Positions 1 to 6,862 of a DNA stretch of 64,000 bases are shown in pieces. The notes below the pieces were generated by a model. The model ran no database searches, was not told where the DNA came from, and was given only the letters and a program-made list of their open reading frames with translations. Source of the DNA: Oscillospiraceae bacterium (GTDB lineage Bacteria; Bacillota; Clostridia; Oscillospirales; Oscillospiraceae). The first letter of the stretch is position 1. Each line of letters starts with the position of its first letter. Made by a program: the position numbers and the translations under genes. The stretch covers positions 17,701-81,700 of the forward strand of contig JAFUNI010000014.1 of assembly GCA_017482385.1 (NCBI GenBank). Direction: 5' to 3'.

Positions 1-401
1 TTTTCAGCCTCCGCCTTTACATCGGCAACGGTCTTACCCTGGGCCCGCAAGGCTTTTTTGTTCTTCTTGGCGATGGTAACAGGCGCGAGGGTGATATTGT
101 CCAGCACGCACAGGTTGTTGAACAGATTAAACTGCTGGAACACCATGCCGATCTTTTGCCGGTGGATATTGATGTCCACCTTCATATCGGCCAGATCCTC
201 GCCGTCGAACATAATAGAGCCGCCGGAGGGGTCTTCCAGGCAGTTGATGCAACGCAGGAAGGTGGATTTACCGCAGCCGGAAGGGCCGATGATCGCTACC
301 ACATCGCCTTCGTAAACATCTAAGTCGATGCCCTTCAGAACTTGGTTGTCCCCAAACTGCTTGGTCAGATTTTTAACCGATAAAACTAACTGTTTTTCCA
401 T
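1..401 (-). CDS. Amino-acid ABC transporter ATP-binding protein, 3' part cut by window edge
   Basis: This is the N-terminal part (about 133 residues) of a polar amino-acid ABC ATPase of the GlnQ/ArtP type; the rest lies left of the window. It begins MEKQLVLSVKNL. The Walker A motif is GPSGCGKST, followed by the family-typical FLRCINCLEDPSGG, and the Q-loop reads VFQQFNLF. It would hydrolyse ATP on the cytoplasmic face to drive uptake by the permease encoded one base upstream. The ATG at 401 directly follows the permease stop codon, so the two are translationally coupled. The substrate is not readable from the ATPase alone; the argG-argH context suggests arginine, ornithine or citrulline (inference). 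Confidence 0.93.
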   Translation of the reverse strand, partial: MEKQLVLSVKNLTKQFGDNQVLKGIDLDVYEGDVVAIIGPSGCGKSTFLRCINCLEDPSGGSIMFDGEDLADMKVDINIHRQKIGMVFQQFNLFNNLCVLDNITLAPVTIAKKNKKALRAQGKTVADVKAEAE

Positions 402-402
402 A

Positions 403-1107
403 TTATCTTTCACTCTTCTTCATTTTTGCTTCCAGCGCTCTCACGCCCCAGGAGATCAGCAGCACCATGATCAAATAGGTCAGTGCCAGCATCAGATAGG
501 GCATGGTGTAATCGTAGGTGGGATCACCCAGCTGCTTGAAGGATTTGTAAAGGTCGGTCACCGCAATAAAGCTGACGATGGAGGTTTCCTTGATCAGCAC
601 GATGAACTCGTTGCCCAAGGTGGGCAGGATGTTCTTGACGGCCTGGGGCACCACGATTTTCAGCATGGTGGTGGCGTAGGTTAGACCGACAGCTCTGCCG
701 GCCTCCATTTGGCCGGGGTCTACGGATTGGATGCCGCTGCGCATAATCTCACTGACATAAGCGCCGCTGTTCAGACCGAACATAATAATGGCAACCGGAA
801 CACCGGAGTCCACGGTGATGCCCAACGCAGGCAGCAGTACCCAGTAGCCGATCAGCAGCTGCACCACCATAGGTGTGCCCCGGAAGAGTTCAATATAGCA
901 TACGCAGATCTTGTCCAAGATCCGGGGAAGCCTCTTATACTTGGGCATCACCCGGACAACGGCAATGATAGTACCGATCAAAATACCGATCAGCAAGCCG
1001 CCAACGGCGATCTGCACGGTGATCCACAGGCCGTTCAGCACATTTTCATATCCCTTTAGGGTGATGAACTGCTTGATAAATTCATTCCACATTTGAGTTA
1101 TAGTCAT
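403..1107 (-). CDS. Amino-acid ABC transporter permease (HisM/GlnP type)
   Basis: This is an integral membrane permease of the polar amino-acid family, about 234 residues. The N-terminus has the family hallmark (ENVLNGLWITVQIAV). The EAA loop reads EAGRAVGLTYATTMLKIVVPQ, and the C-terminal part has the expected membrane helices. A TTG at 1119 would add four residues; I prefer the ATG at 1107, although neither has a clear Shine-Dalgarno. A strong hairpin (1121-1152) separates it from the binding-protein gene upstream. The stop lies one base before the ATPase start. It forms the membrane channel of the importer encoded by 1-1992. Confidence 0.93.
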   Translation of the reverse strand: MTITQMWNEFIKQFITLKGYENVLNGLWITVQIAVGGLLIGILIGTIIAVVRVMPKYKRLPRILDKICVCYIELFRGTPMVVQLLIGYWVLLPALGITVDSGVPVAIIMFGLNSGAYVSEIMRSGIQSVDPGQMEAGRAVGLTYATTMLKIVVPQAVKNILPTLGNEFIVLIKETSIVSFIAVTDLYKSFKQLGDPTYDYTMPYLMLALTYLIMVLLISWGVRALEAKMKKSER

Positions 1108-1120
1108 ATTTTTAACCAAA

Positions 1121-1152
1121 GTGAAGGCTTAGCCAAAGCGCTAAGCCTTCAC
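1121..1152 (-). terminator. Intergenic hairpin between binding-protein and permease genes
   Basis: A perfect 12-bp inverted repeat (GTGAAGGCTTAG / CTAAGCCTTCAC) with an 8-base loop lies between the binding-protein stop and the permease start. Downstream on the minus strand the sequence is TTTGGTTAAAAAT, only a weak U-tract. It probably acts as a partial terminator or mRNA-stabilising hairpin that makes more binding protein than membrane components, as is common for ABC importers (inference). Confidence 0.7.
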
Positions 1153-1176
1153 CTTACCTTTTCTGATTTACTTAAA

Positions 1177-1992
1177 TTACTTTGCGCAGATGACGTTCAG
1201 CATGTCAACAACAGTGCCGGCGGAATCCAGCTCGGTGTAGGCAGTGGGAACAACGCAGACGATGGACTCGGTGTAGTAGGGCTCGGAGAAGTTGATAACG
1301 CCCAGACGCTCGGTGGTGATGGTGATACCGGACATAGCGATGTCAACATTCTGCTTGCCAACAGCGCCCACAACAGCGTCGAACTCCATATCGTCGATAA
1401 CCAGCTCCAGACCCAGCTCGTCAGCGATCAGCTTAGCGATCTCCATGTCGATGCCGTAGAACTGATTGCCTTCCTTGTACTCCCAGGGAGCGAACTCAGC
1501 GTTGGTAGCAACAACCAGCTGCTCAGCTGCCTTGCTGCCGTCCTTGGTGCCGGAGGTCACGCCAACATACTTGGCCTCTTCGCCATTCATGTACTTTTCC
1601 TTGATGGCGTCGATCTCGGTAGCCTTGTCTTTCAGAATGTTGTCGATCTTGGTCTTCAGGTCAGCCTGGTTCTTGTCGATACCGATGCCGTAGTTCTCGC
1701 TGGACAGAGCGATCTCGATGATCTTCAGACCCTCGATCTCCTTAGCCAGGGACTTAGCGGTGGTCTTGTCAACGAACAGGTAATCAGCGTTGCCGTTGAT
1801 CATGTCCTTTGCAGCCAGTGCGAAGGTGTCATAGGAAGTGGTCTTGGTGTTGGCCAGCTTGTCAGCGTACATAAAGCTGGTGGTGCCCTTCTGGGCAGCG
1901 ATCTTAGCGCCGGCCTCGTCCTTAGCGCCGCAAGCAGCGAACAGGGACAGGCACAGAACCAGTGCCAGGGTCAATGCGATAAACTTTTTCAT
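1177..1992 (-). CDS. Amino-acid ABC transporter substrate-binding lipoprotein with permuted lobe order
   Basis: This is a 271-residue family-3 solute-binding protein. It has a signal peptide and a lipobox ending at Cys21 (LFAACG), so it should be membrane-anchored outside the cell. The domain order is reversed. Residues about 27-135 (AGAKIAAQKGTTS to DAIKEKYM) correspond to the second lobe of ordinary family members. A linker of about 23 residues follows. Residues about 159-248 (LVVATNAEFAPWEY to TESIVCVV) correspond to the normal first lobe, which usually directly follows the signal peptide. The reading frame is uninterrupted and the ribosome site AGGAGG is strong, so the gene looks functional. 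It lies 18 bases behind argH and before the permease and ATPase, which suggests uptake of arginine or a precursor (inference). Confidence 0.92.
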   Translation of the reverse strand: MKKFIALTLALVLCLSLFAACGAKDEAGAKIAAQKGTTSFMYADKLANTKTTSYDTFALAAKDMINGNADYLFVDKTTAKSLAKEIEGLKIIEIALSSENYGIGIDKNQADLKTKIDNILKDKATEIDAIKEKYMNGEEAKYVGVTSGTKDGSKAAEQLVVATNAEFAPWEYKEGNQFYGIDMEIAKLIADELGLELVIDDMEFDAVVGAVGKQNVDIAMSGITITTERLGVINFSEPYYTESIVCVVPTAYTELDSAGTVVDMLNVICAK

Positions 1993-2010
1993 TTTGGTTT
2001 CCTCCTAAAA

Positions 2011-3381
2011 TTAAATAAATTTTTGAATGTACTTTATTTGCTCGTCGGCGGAAGCCTGATTGGTGCCGCCGGCGGAGATTCTGCTTTCCACACATCGTCG
2101 CAGGTCGATGGCTTCAAAAACATCGTCTTCAAACTGGGTGTCGAATTCTTTGTATTCTGCGATGGTCATTTCTTCCAGCACCTTGTTATTTGCGATACAG
2201 TAGGCCACGATCTGACCGGTAGTTTTATAAGCACTGCGGAAGGGCTCGCCCTTCTTGGTGAGATAGTCAGCCAGGTCGGTGGCATTGATGAAGCCCTTCT
2301 GTGCGGCCCGGAGCATATTCTCGGGCAGGGGCTTCATGGTGCGGATCATGGGCGGGAATACGGTTAAGCACTGCTTGACGGTGTCGATTGCGTCGAAGAT
2401 GGACTCCTTATCCTCCTGCATATCCTTGTTATATGCCAAGGGCAGGCCCTTCAGTACTGTGAGCATTCCCATGAGATCGCCGTAGACGCGGCCCGTTTTG
2501 CCTCGCACCAATTCGGCGATATCAGGGTTCTTCTTCTGGGGCATAATACTCGACCCGGTGGTGTAGCTGTCATCCAGCTCGATGAACTTGAATTCCCAGC
2601 TTGCCCAGAGGATGACCTCCTCGGAGAAACGGGACAAATGCATCATCACCGTGGCGAAGGCACTCAGCAGCTCCACGCAGAAGTCCCGGTCGGACACGCC
2701 GTCAATGCTGTTGAGGGTAATGCCGTCGAAGCCTAACTTGGCTGCTACCATTTCCCGGTTGGTGGGATAGGTAGTGCCGGCCAAGGCGCAAGAGCCGAGG
2801 GGAGAATAGTTCATCCGCTTCACCGCATCCTCGATGCGGCCAATGTCCCGGGTGAACATCATACCGTATGCCAACAGATGGTGGGCAAAGGTGATGGGCT
2901 GGGCTCTTTGCAGGTGGGTGTAACCGGGCATAATGGTGTTTTTATGCTGCTCTGCCTGGAAGAGAATGTCCTCCAGCAGACCCTTAAGCATTGCCACAAT
3001 GCCGGCTGCCTCTTCTTTTAAGTACAGACGCACATCCAGGGCAACCTGGTCGTTGCGGCTGCGGGCGGTGTGGAGCTTTTTGCCAATGTCGCCAATGCGC
3101 TTGGTGAGCTCCGCCTCCACAAACATATGGATATCTTCCGCGGTCATATCGATTGCCAGTTTGCCGCTTTCCAAATCCGCCAAGATCTTTTCCAGCTCAG
3201 CGATGATGGTGTCGGCATCAGCGGAGGGGATGATCCCCTGGGCTGAGAGCATTGCCGCGTGGGCCATAGAGCCCTTGATATCCTGCCGGAACATCCGGCA
3301 GTCAAAGTGAATGGAGGAGTTGAAGTCGTCGGCCTGTTGGTCCAGCGCCTTGCTGAACCGGCCTTCCCACATCTTAGCCAT
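2011..3381 (-). CDS. argH: Argininosuccinate lyase
   Basis: This 456-residue cytoplasmic enzyme cleaves argininosuccinate to arginine and fumarate, the last step of arginine synthesis. The start [14 protein letters not shown] is typical, and the fumarase/aspartase superfamily signature [12 protein letters not shown] is present. [12 protein letters not shown] and [11 protein letters not shown] are the other conserved blocks. Length matches the family. The start overlaps the end of argG by 8 bases, and a binding-protein gene follows after 18 bases, so argG, argH and the transporter form one transcription unit. Confidence 0.98.
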
Positions 3382-4603
3382 TGTTCAGCTTACCCTGTTC
3401 CATAAGAGCCTGGGTCTGGGTGGGCAGGCCCCACAGGTTGATAAAGCCGGTGGCCTGGGACTGATCGTAGTCGCTTTCGCCGAAGGTGCAGATCTCTTCG
3501 GAGTACAGGGAGAAGGGACTCTTCACGCCTGCGTTGATCATATTGCCCTTGTACAGCTTCAGCCGGACAGTACCGGTGACATTCTTCTGCGTCTCGGTCA
3601 CGAAAGCGGACAGAGCCTCACGCAGGGGGGTGTACCACTGGCCGTTGTACAAAAGCTCTGCAAAGCAAACGCTCAGCTCCTGCTTCTTGTGGGCGGTCAT
3701 CTTATCCAGGCAGATGGTCTCCAAAACTCTGTGAGCCTTGTACAGGATGGTGCCGCCGGGAGTCTCGTAAACGCCTCTGCACTTCATACCGACCAAACGG
3801 TTCTCAACAATGTCCAACAAACCGATGCCGTTCTTGCCGCCGATCTCGTTCAGCTTCCAGATCATATCGGTGGCGGACATCTTCTGACCGTCCAGAGCAA
3901 CGGGAACGCCCTTCTCAAAGTCGATGGTCACATAGGTGGGCTCGTCGGGAGCCAGCATGGGAGAAATGGTCATCTCCAGGAAGCCGGGCTTCTCGTACTG
4001 GGGCTCGTTCCAGGGATCTTCCAGGTCCAGGCCCTCGTGGCTCAAGTGCCACAGGTTCTTGTCCTTGGAGTAGTTGGTCTCCCGGTTGATCTTCAGAGGT
4101 ACGTTGTGAGCCTCGGCGTAGTCGATTTCTTCTTCACGGGACTTGATATCCCACTCACGCCAGGGAGCGATGATCTTCATATCGGGAGCGAAGCGCTTGA
4201 TAGCCAGCTCGAAACGAACCTGGTCGTTGCCCTTACCGGTGCAGCCGTGGGCGATAGCGTCAGCGCCCTCAGCCAAAGCGATCTCCACCAGAGCCTTAGC
4301 GATGATGGGACGGGCGAAGGCAGTACCCATCAGGTACTCTTCGTAGATGCAGCCGGCCTGCATGGAGGGAATGATGATCTCGTCAACCATAGCCTCGCTG
4401 AGGTCTGCAGCGTAGAACTTGTGAGCGCCGGTCTTGTAGGCCTTCTCTTCCAGGCCTTCCAGCTCGTCGGCCTGGCCAACGTTACCGGCCACAGCGATGA
4501 TGTAAGGATCGTTGTAGTTTTCCTTCAGCCAGGGAATGATGATGGAAGTGTCCAGGCCACCGGAGTAGGCCAAAACAATCTTCTTGATGTCTTTCTTATC
4601 CAT
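3374..4603 (-). CDS. argG: Argininosuccinate synthase
   Basis: This 409-residue enzyme joins citrulline and aspartate using ATP. The N-terminal PP-loop reads [14 protein letters not shown]. Other family blocks visible are [13 protein letters not shown] and APWREWD. I take the ATG at 4603 because AGGAGG sits 7 bases upstream; a longer in-frame extension to 4669 lacks a ribosome site and overlaps the promoter. It is the first gene of an operon with argH and an amino-acid importer. Confidence 0.98.
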
Positions 4604-4659
4604 TTTAGTTTCCTCCTGATATCCGCGGGGATAGCCCGTGTAATTTATGTTATGGCAAG

Positions 4660-4688
4660 ATTGTAGCACAGCTTGAATAAATATGCAA
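4660..4688 (-). promoter_or_regulatory. Sigma-A promoter of the argGH-transporter operon
   Basis: On the minus strand, TTGCAT (4683-4688) is separated by 17 bases from TACAAT (4660-4665), with an extended TGC before the -10. Start of transcription would be near 4653, giving a leader of about 50 bases, too short for a T-box. The motifs TGAATAT and TTATTCA around the -35 resemble ArgR half-sites, but their spacing is not canonical, so ArgR control is only a possibility. Confidence 0.75.
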
Positions 4689-4787
4689 GCCCATATTCAT
4701 TATTTTCATTCCAAAAGTTAATGAAAAAACCGAGTTTGTTTTGGTAACTATGCACAAAAACCGAGCATTTTACCCGTGTATGCGCAG

Positions 4788-4814
4788 AAAAGCAGGGCGC
4801 ACAGCCCTGCTTTT
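4788..4814 (-). terminator. Rho-independent terminator of the polysaccharide operon
   Basis: A 10-bp perfect stem (AAAAGCAGGG / CCCTGCTTTT) with a 7-base loop lies 42 bases after the flippase stop codon, with a short U-tract at the end of the stem. It separates the polysaccharide operon from argG. Confidence 0.8.
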
Positions 4815-4855
4815 CAATGTATAAAATGCATAAATTTTTTGGAAAATTGTATATT

Positions 4856-6253
4856 TTAGACGGAAGCCTTATCCTTGCGCATTTGCTTCAGCAAATAAAG
4901 GGATACGGGAATGACCATCACAGCGCATATACCCCAGCGTAGCAGAATGCTGTCCACAAACAGCAGCTGCCAGGCGGCCATTGCAGCCACAGCGGCGCAG
5001 ACACCCAGCATCCGGCTGGGAGGCACCACAAAGAACTTTAATAGCTTTCCGGAGATGAAATAATGCACCGCCGCAAACAGCAAATAAGACGCCAAGGTGG
5101 TGTACGCTGCGGCTACAAAGCCGTAGAGCTTGATGAACACATAGTTTAAGACAATGTTTACCACCGCGGCAGCCACAGTGCCGTACATAATGTAGGTGGT
5201 CTTCTTGGCATAGTACTGGGCGGGGACGACCAAATTATAAAGAAACAGCGCAAAGGCATCCAGCACCAGGGGGATCGCCACATATTTACCCAATGTGTAT
5301 TTTGCACCGCCCAGAAGCTGCACCAGCTCCGGCGACAGTGCCATAAGGCCGGAGGTCAGGACAAAGAACAGCAAAAGCAGCTGGGTCGCCCGCTTTTGAA
5401 TGGCGTTCTTTTCCCCCTTGTCCATCTGGGAATAGAACCAGGTGGTCCAGGCGGTGGTGACGGACTCGGTGATGATCACCAAAATCAGCTTGATATTGCC
5501 GGCCAAAGAGTAAATACCTGCGGCAGCATCGCTGACCATTTTGCTGATCATGATCCGGTCGCATTGATTCAGCAGCATTTGGGAAATGCCGTGGGGTACG
5601 ATGGGCAGGCTGTATTTGATGCCGAAATTCCAATAGGTCTTGGAAATTCGGGGCTTTGCCTTCCGGAAAAAGCTAATTAGCAGCACCACCGAAATAAGGA
5701 ATGCCGGCAGCGATGCGCCGATGATCCGGCCCATAGCCCGGTTTTCGGAAAATACCGTCAGAATCAGCACCAAAGAAAGGGTGATATTCAATATAGAGCT
5801 GCAGGCAGAAACCAGCAGATATTTTTTATAGGAATAGTCTAAGCTGATACGGGTGTTGTACAGCTGGATCACAGCTGTGGAAAAACTGCCCAGCACCAGC
5901 ATGGTGAGGGATGCGGGAGGCAGCGCCAAAACCTGTCCCAGCGCCCGGCGGAACAAAACAGCCACAGCAAGCGCCACCAGTCCGTTCAGAATATAGATCA
6001 GACTGATGGAGGAGGTATAGCTGTTGATTTTGCCCCGGAATTCCAAATTTGCGCTTTGGATACTGGTGTGCAGGGCCAGGCCGATGAGCACGAACAGTAT
6101 CATATCGTAGGACGCAAATACATTATAAACACCAAACTCCTCCGGGGAGAGGAGTCGGCTGAAAATGGGCAGCGTCAGGAAATTGATACCCTTGATTAAA
6201 ATGTTACCAAGGGTGTAACCAACTCCGGAGCGCAGCGCCTTGCTTTCTGACAT
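4856..6253 (-). CDS. Polysaccharide flippase (Wzx/MOP superfamily)
   Basis: This is a 465-residue polytopic membrane protein of the oligosaccharide flippase family. The N-terminus (SGVGYTLGNILIKGINFLTL, then IFSRLLSPEEFGVYNVF) is the characteristic RfbX/Wzx block. About twelve to fourteen hydrophobic segments run to the C-terminus, and the polysaccharide-synthesis C-terminal domain contains VPAQYYAKKT. It should flip the undecaprenyl-linked repeat unit to the outer face of the membrane for polymerisation by the product of 10022-11455. It is the last gene of the operon and is followed by a terminator. Confidence 0.92.
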   Translation of the reverse strand: MSESKALRSGVGYTLGNILIKGINFLTLPIFSRLLSPEEFGVYNVFASYDMILFVLIGLALHTSIQSANLEFRGKINSYTSSISLIYILNGLVALAVAVLFRRALGQVLALPPASLTMLVLGSFSTAVIQLYNTRISLDYSYKKYLLVSACSSILNITLSLVLILTVFSENRAMGRIIGASLPAFLISVVLLISFFRKAKPRISKTYWNFGIKYSLPIVPHGISQMLLNQCDRIMISKMVSDAAAGIYSLAGNIKLILVIITESVTTAWTTWFYSQMDKGEKNAIQKRATQLLLLFFVLTSGLMALSPELVQLLGGAKYTLGKYVAIPLVLDAFALFLYNLVVPAQYYAKKTTYIMYGTVAAAVVNIVLNYVFIKLYGFVAAAYTTLASYLLFAAVHYFISGKLLKFFVVPPSRMLGVCAAVAAMAAWQLLFVDSILLRWGICAVMVIPVSLYLLKQMRKDKASV

Positions 6254-6262
6254 AGTTTCACC

Positions 6263-6862
6263 TTAAATCTGGGCAATACCCAACCATTTTTGATCTTTTT
6301 CGCTTAAATTGAGGGGTGTGCCGTCGGAGAGGGTGTAGCCCTCAGCAGAAGCACTGCCCTTGTACTGACCGACAACTTCCGGCCAGGTGATGCCGATGGC
6401 AGGGTCGTTCCAGGCAAGACCGCCCTCGTCATTGGCGTGGTAGAAGTCATCGCATTTGTAGCAGAACTCGGCAGTGTCGCTCAGCACCAAAAAACCGTGG
6501 GCAAAGCCCCGGGGAATGAGAAACTGCTTTTTGTTTTCCGCGGTCAGCTCCACGCCGTACCACTTGCCGTAGGTGGCAGAGCCGGGGCGCAGGTCCACAG
6601 CCACATCAAAAACAGATCCCTGGATCACCCGCACCAGCTTGGTTTGGGGGAAATTCTTTTGGAAGTGGAGGCCTCGCAGCACGCCCTTTACGGACATAGA
6701 TTGGTTGTCCTGGACAAAATTGATGTCAATACCTGCTTCCTGCATATCCCGCAGGCTGTAGGTCTCCATAAAGTAGCCCCGGTTGTCGCCGTGGACGGCG
6801 GGGGTGATAACGCAGAGGCCGTCAATACCGCCTACATTCTTTTCAACAGTGATCTGTCCCAT
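6263..6862 (-). CDS. rmlC: dTDP-4-dehydrorhamnose 3,5-epimerase
   Basis: This 199-residue cupin enzyme is the third step of dTDP-L-rhamnose synthesis. It shows the family sequence RGLHFQKNFPQTKLVRVIQG with the catalytic His, and PRGFAHGFLVLSDTAEFCYKCDDFY-type blocks later in the protein. It is slightly longer than the common 180 residues, with a short C-terminal tail. Its ATG overlaps the rmlD stop by one base, and the flippase follows after 9 bases. Confidence 0.97.
   Translation of the reverse strand: MGQITVEKNVGGIDGLCVITPAVHGDNRGYFMETYSLRDMQEAGIDINFVQDNQSMSVKGVLRGLHFQKNFPQTKLVRVIQGSVFDVAVDLRPGSATYGKWYGVELTAENKKQFLIPRGFAHGFLVLSDTAEFCYKCDDFYHANDEGGLAWNDPAIGITWPEVVGQYKGSASAEGYTLSDGTPLNLSEKDQKWLGIAQI

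Follow-up and report, generated by a model that had tools for sequence, protein, structure and literature searches.

A predicted natural circular permutant of the family-3 solute-binding lipoproteins, encoded between argH and an ABC permease gene in an Oscillospiraceae genome

The window analysed here, a stretch of 64,000 nucleotides from contig JAFUNI010000014.1 of an Oscillospiraceae bacterium, carries at its left end a run of minus-strand genes which, in the genome, read in the order argG, argH, solute-binding protein (SBP), permease, ATPase and carbamoyltransferase. The ATPase gene is cut at the window edge, and its complete open reading frame lies further left on the same contig (L088), where an ornithine/aspartate carbamoyltransferase gene (L088:2335-3348) stands behind it and rounds off an arginine-type cluster. 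To describe the SBP, we divide the canonical family-3 chain, A-B-C, into segment A (the N-terminal part of lobe 1 with hinge 1 and the first strand of lobe 2), segment B (the bulk of lobe 2), and segment C (which completes lobe 2, passes through hinge 2 and supplies the C-terminal part of lobe 1). The features of the locus are the following:

3374-4603, minus strand: argG, argininosuccinate synthase (Pfam)
2011-3381, minus strand: argH, argininosuccinate lyase (Lyase_1 and ASL_C2)
2001-2006, minus strand: AGGAGG, resembling a ribosome-binding site, 8 bases 5' of the ATG (read from the sequence)
1177-1992, minus strand: gene of the permuted family-3 solute-binding lipoprotein, 271 amino acids, ATG at 1992
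1930-1992, minus strand: signal peptide and lipobox up to Cys21 (sequence reading and lipobox pattern test)
1741-1920, minus strand: segment B, residues 25-84, starting 2-3 residues past the lipid-anchor Cys (segment model)
1591-1731, minus strand: segment C, residues 88-134 (segment model)
1522-1587, minus strand: linker from the old C-terminus to the old N-terminus, 22 amino acids, residues 136-157 (aligned with relatives)
1249-1521, minus strand: segment A, residues 158-248 (Pfam and segment model)
1180-1248, minus strand: C-terminal tail, 23 amino acids, residues 249-271, resembling by eye the A-B helix of C-A-B relatives
1118-1155, no strand: inverted repeat (arms of 16 nt) lying between the SBP gene and the permease gene
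403-1119, minus strand: ABC permease gene (BPD_transp_1)
1-401, minus strand: ABC ATPase gene, cut at the window edge

No Rfam match was obtained in positions 1-6000 of the window; the inverted repeat perhaps sets the ratio of SBP to permease expression.

By its sequence, the product of the gene at 1177-1992 is a family-3 SBP (PF00497) with a permuted chain, which both the segment models and phmmer place in the order B-C-A. In the phmmer search against PDB sequences, the top match was 4prs, with residues 154-248 of the window protein aligned to residues 6-101 (i-E 7.3e-16) and residues 24-135 aligned to residues 113-225 (i-E 2.2e-9), so that the two blocks are swapped. The Pfam profile SBP_bac_3 matches residues 159-251 with its positions 1-93 of 132 (88.5 bits, cut-off 26.4), and the other families matched up to E 0.001 were Lig_chan-Glu_bd and Complex1_51K, with no type I sugar-binding family. 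This model covers permuted SBPs only in part, and thus the family name alone hides the permutation. As a check of the segment models, E. coli GlnH was typed A-B-C; the window chain holds one each of A, B and C, and is not a tandem-SBD protein. The swapped block order had already been proposed in the initial annotation, and Pfam, phmmer and the segment models bear it out. Its "second-lobe block", ending at DAIKEKYM, does contain lobe 2 and also holds the C-terminal segment of lobe 1, while the joining stretch that it put at about 23 residues exists and measures 22 residues between C and A.

The same chain order is conserved in related genomes. Some match to the window protein was found in 96 of the 101 genomes of the genus sample, where 30 loci from 30 genomes were typed as B-C-A (seven), C-A-B (four) or canonical (19). 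The seven B-C-A genomes are that of the window, G064, G066, G014, G072, G051 and G021. Relatives with this order share 88-99% identity with the window protein in five genus genomes, 68% in L037 and 43% in L008. A scan of public genomes gave 52 loci, comprising 15 B-C-A (L032-L036 among them look like genomes already in the genus sample), 10 C-A-B, 24 canonical, two tandem arrays and one with segment A only. It includes two isolates of Ruminococcus bromii (L044 and L045) whose B-C-A SBP forms one chain with the permease. One of the ten C-A-B loci has a canonical SBP alongside. In the Clostridia MAG sequence L081, the SBPs at 3461-4291 and 5905-6708 are one canonical and one C-A-B, each near permease and ATPase matches.

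Beyond the genus, permuted SBPs were sought with A1, a 160-position profile of the C-linker-A junction run on whole genomes, a full-length match being one that starts at model position 9 or before and ends at 159 or later. This search requires intact C and A segments, and chain breaks inside either of them are invisible to it. At least 58 of the 391 genomes of the class sample (about 15%), the window's included, have a full-length match, and the 57 class loci besides the window's, among the matches listed, were all permuted, 35 as C-A-B and 22 as B-C-A (L164 counted as B-C-A despite an extra overlapping B call; G597, at a contig edge, G511, matching 23-160, and G617, matching 31-160, were left out). 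The family sample contains at least 36 full-length junction loci in at least 33 of 300 genomes, and the 35 typed among the matches listed, again with the window's, were all permuted (19 B-C-A and 16 C-A-B; G196, matching 26-160, was not counted, and G118 was counted as a match outside the 35 typed). As a control, 14 loci with a match starting no earlier than model position 55 (L111-L118, L189-L192, L194 and L195) were all canonical. At the level of the phylum, four of 398 genomes matched at E 1e-45, a threshold that would miss some permuted SBPs of the class too, and all four belong to the window's class; at E 1e-32, 12 of 299 genomes matched, with four matches spanning the junction model, three within the class and one outside. 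In G860 (L193), from another class of the same phylum, the match covers model positions 1-158, and the SBP, typed individually, is B-C-A.

Two longer chains were also observed. One is a 1010-residue chain with a lipobox-like start in the proteobacterium Nitrosomonas communis Nm44 (L082:5119-8148), in which a BPD_transp_1 permease domain is combined with three units of B-C-A order. The other is a 1167-residue open reading frame in a Clostridia MAG (L073:4297-7797) with four SBP_bac_3 stretches, whose register is B-C-A or C-A-B depending on the cut-off.

The permuted chains do not all open at the same place. Segments A and C were assigned to lobes by alignment to GlnH, in which we place the hinges at positions 85-89 and 181-185 (mature numbering), and by the topology of CdgH. 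The alignment to GlnH, read by eye, places the common B-C-A break, R. bromii included, before alpha4; that of the window type (L001, L008 and L037), a third and rarer kind, between alpha4 and beta6; and that of C-A-B between alpha6 and beta9, all of them in lobe 2. The idea that each permuted class cuts one hinge was considered and dropped, since the GlnH hinge residues fall within segments A and C. In CdgH, lobe II runs from beta5 to beta10, with hinges beta4-beta5 and beta10-beta11 (PMC5431781). Both hinge strands should thus be retained in the permuted proteins, in which the chain ends and the lipid anchor would be found on lobe 2 and no longer on lobe 1. Contrary to the initial annotation, which put the old termini near the hinge, the alignment locates them in lobe 1 and away from it. 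Between the lipobox Cys and the start of the first segment lie, at the median, 19.5 residues in canonical rows (lipobox in 38 of 41), 12.5 in common B-C-A rows (40 of 41), 7 in C-A-B rows (53 of 55) and 2 in window-type rows (3 of 3), lengths that are only roughly comparable because the first segment differs with the order.

How these orders are distributed was assessed in a tree of 140 rows, obtained from 184 typed open reading frames by removing 43 whose identity to a retained row of their own order exceeded 90%, as well as the distant canonical SBP of L081. Seven duplicate loci were likewise set aside ahead of counting. On this tree, the distribution of the three orders takes no fewer than 13 changes, and the starred branches alone force five changes for C-A-B, five for B-C-A and six for A-B-C. 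The AU test rejected a single origin of C-A-B (p 0.002), as it did a tree in which one branch separates all A-B-C rows from the rest (p 0.013). It did not reject a single clade for the common B-C-A rows (p 0.225), even though the starred branches force five B-C-A changes, nor one for the window type (p 0.371). The clade of the window protein consists of 24 C-A-B, three B-C-A and no canonical rows (support 99/91).

After rotation, the closest pair of different order is the B-C-A protein of L040 with the canonical one of L056 or L063 (79.8%), and the C-A-B proteins of L091 and L098 share 78.1 and 77.5% with the canonical L116. Between L040 and the canonical L062, the SBP (77%), the permease (81%) and the ATPase (90%) are all similar, which suggests that rotation of the SBP took place in situ, in an operon that is otherwise orthologous. 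In the pair of L098 and L116, 73% identity between the permeases is accompanied by just 59% between the ATPase pieces (106 residues compared), and the claim of orthology stays with L040 and L062. The best partner of another order for the window protein is the C-A-B protein of L138 (47.7%), and its best canonical partner shares 44.2%. For the window lineage, an ancestor that was permuted before, with a second displacement of its ends, would fit, on a tree that is unrooted and gives no direction. A search for remnants of a tandem duplication in positions 1-3500 of the window brought up nothing but short, chance-like direct repeats, a point against an origin of the window protein by such a duplication with later trimming, which would still be plausible.

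Most known cases of natural circular permutation concern homologues that are far apart. The present family contains three chain orders side by side, and its closest pairs of unlike order share 80% identity. Nature would thereby offer an experiment on the way in which a fold acquires new ends, and on whether it matters which lobe is anchored. As a possible rather than a probable reading, the family-3 SBPs of Clostridia would be labile in topology, with repeated permutation, at least once in place in an orthologous operon, three breaks in lobe 2, a window lineage permuted again with the C-A junction kept, and a tethering through lobe 2 that is adaptive. To the alternative that the protein works and its permutation is neutral, we would give nearly an even chance: as long as the hinges survive, the chain could be opened at several places, and the anchor in lobe 2 would be meaningless by itself. 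Three distinct break points are indeed maintained in nature, and close relatives are canonical, one such pair in an orthologous operon. Against neutrality, every observed break lies in lobe 2, an argument weakened by the fact that the junction search would miss breaks inside C or A.

The neighbourhood points to transport. The window protein is exported according to its lipobox pattern, and permease and ATPase genes are adjacent to it, as they also stand behind the SBP in the five relatives with 88-99% identity, in L037 and in L008. A permease match lies in the stretch around the permuted SBP at 125 of 130 loci (95 of 99 with near-copies removed; the exceptions are L104, L122, L186, L187 and L188), and an ATPase match at 118 of 130 (89 of 99). 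At five permuted loci, the SBP and the permease form one chain (L044; L045:5899-7467, R. bromii ATCC 27255; L129:1093-2703; L132:787-2289; and L139:1165-2694), three of these fusions being confirmed by Pfam. SBPs can feed receptors as well, and a role in sensing, or another one not serving the neighbouring permease, might be conceived; the near-universal permease match and the five fusions make it very unlikely. For the importer component that we prefer, the order argG-argH-SBP-permease-ATPase-carbamoyltransferase suggests a ligand, probably arginine or a related amino acid. Matches to argH and argG among the surveyed permuted loci are limited to the window's locus and its close relatives, and argH precedes the SBP in the five closest relatives of the genus.

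The gene is under purifying selection, with dN/dS values of 0.15, 0.15, 0.14, 0.17 and 0.19 against L004, L005, L006, L007 and L037, respectively. In the same comparisons, the linker gives 0.06-0.40 and the tail reaches 0.58 (L005 pair), while segment A gives 0.63 in the L004 pair, which has very few changes. Regarding the ligand contacts of GlnH, which we take to be D10, F13, F50, G68, T70, R75, K115 and D157, the window protein is unchanged at the columns of F13, F50, G68, T70, R75 and D157, and carries N and Q in place of D10 and K115, as do most canonical relatives. These columns are kept to a similar degree in canonical (n=41), B-C-A (n=44) and C-A-B (n=55) rows, with R75 in 100, 93 and 100% of them, T70 in 78, 91 and 96%, and D157 in 100% of each. 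A decayed, non-functional chimera of SBP pieces that is open by chance could account for the partial coverage of the Pfam profile; we find it hardly credible in view of the whole-gene dN/dS and of an intact lipobox, ligand-contact set and neighbourhood. That the permuted binding protein is functional, as the initial annotation proposed, is thus supported by its conserved order, its neighbours, the dN/dS of 0.14-0.19 and the kept contact residues. The B-C-A order is no assembly error: an assembly or binning artefact swapping two parts of an ordinary gene might be suspected in a draft of 35 contigs whose named relatives are mostly MAGs, and it can be practically dismissed, as the order recurs in six further genomes of the genus sample and in L037, and permuted SBPs occur in the R. 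bromii isolates and in four single-contig genomes (G197, G586, G615 and G740).

Taken together, we consider it very probable that the gene encodes a functional lipoprotein of the family-3 SBPs, circularly permuted by nature, which serves an amino-acid ABC importer; arginine or a related amino acid is the probable ligand. In this protein, the old C- and N-termini, both in lobe 1, would be joined through the 22-residue linker, and the chain would be reopened in lobe 2 between alpha4 and beta6, past hinge 1 and the first strand of lobe 2. As both hinge strands should remain, the two lobes would still be able to clamp the ligand in Venus-flytrap fashion before its transfer to the adjacent permease and ATPase. 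The membrane tether, a very short one, would be attached to lobe 2 and not to lobe 1. Such a chain may have arisen by fusion and trimming of tandem copies, or else from an ancestor that was permuted before and whose ends shifted once more.

Searches of open-licence papers in PubMed Central listed none that was recognisable as describing a permuted family-3 SBP. The words "solute", "transporter" and "periplasmic" are absent from the main text of the CIRPIN preprint on permutation searches (PMC12667903). A precedent is Tp0684 (MglB-2) of Treponema pallidum, described as a natural circular permutant among SBP lipoproteins, "Type Ic / Cluster Bc", with a topology also reported in other treponemes and many Gram-positive species (PMC4990184). 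Both are naturally permuted SBP lipoproteins; however, Tp0684 has a glucose-binding type I fold, contrary to the family-3 window protein, and its permutation adds a fourth interlobe crossover, whereas both hinge strands of the window protein seem simply kept. Engineered permuted constructs of the ribose-binding protein, cited in PMC10601554, indicate that binding-protein folds can be permuted; these are laboratory-made and of the type I family, while the window protein is natural and of family 3. With E. coli GlnH and the arginine-binding protein of Thermotoga maritima, in whose paper 4prs is named (PMC4022495), the window protein has in common the lobe sequences, the ligand-contact columns and the permease and ATPase partners, but their order is A-B-C and that of the window protein is B-C-A, with chain ends in lobe 2 by alignment. 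Among the best 60 of 84 PDB sequences matched by A1, the junction was crossed by the best stretch only in 6h30, a GlnP-type protein with tandem SBDs, where the passage from C to A lies between neighbouring domains and could be a source of fusion. Contrary to GlnP-type tandem SBDs and CdgH, whose domains keep the canonical order, the window protein presents the permuted order in a single domain.
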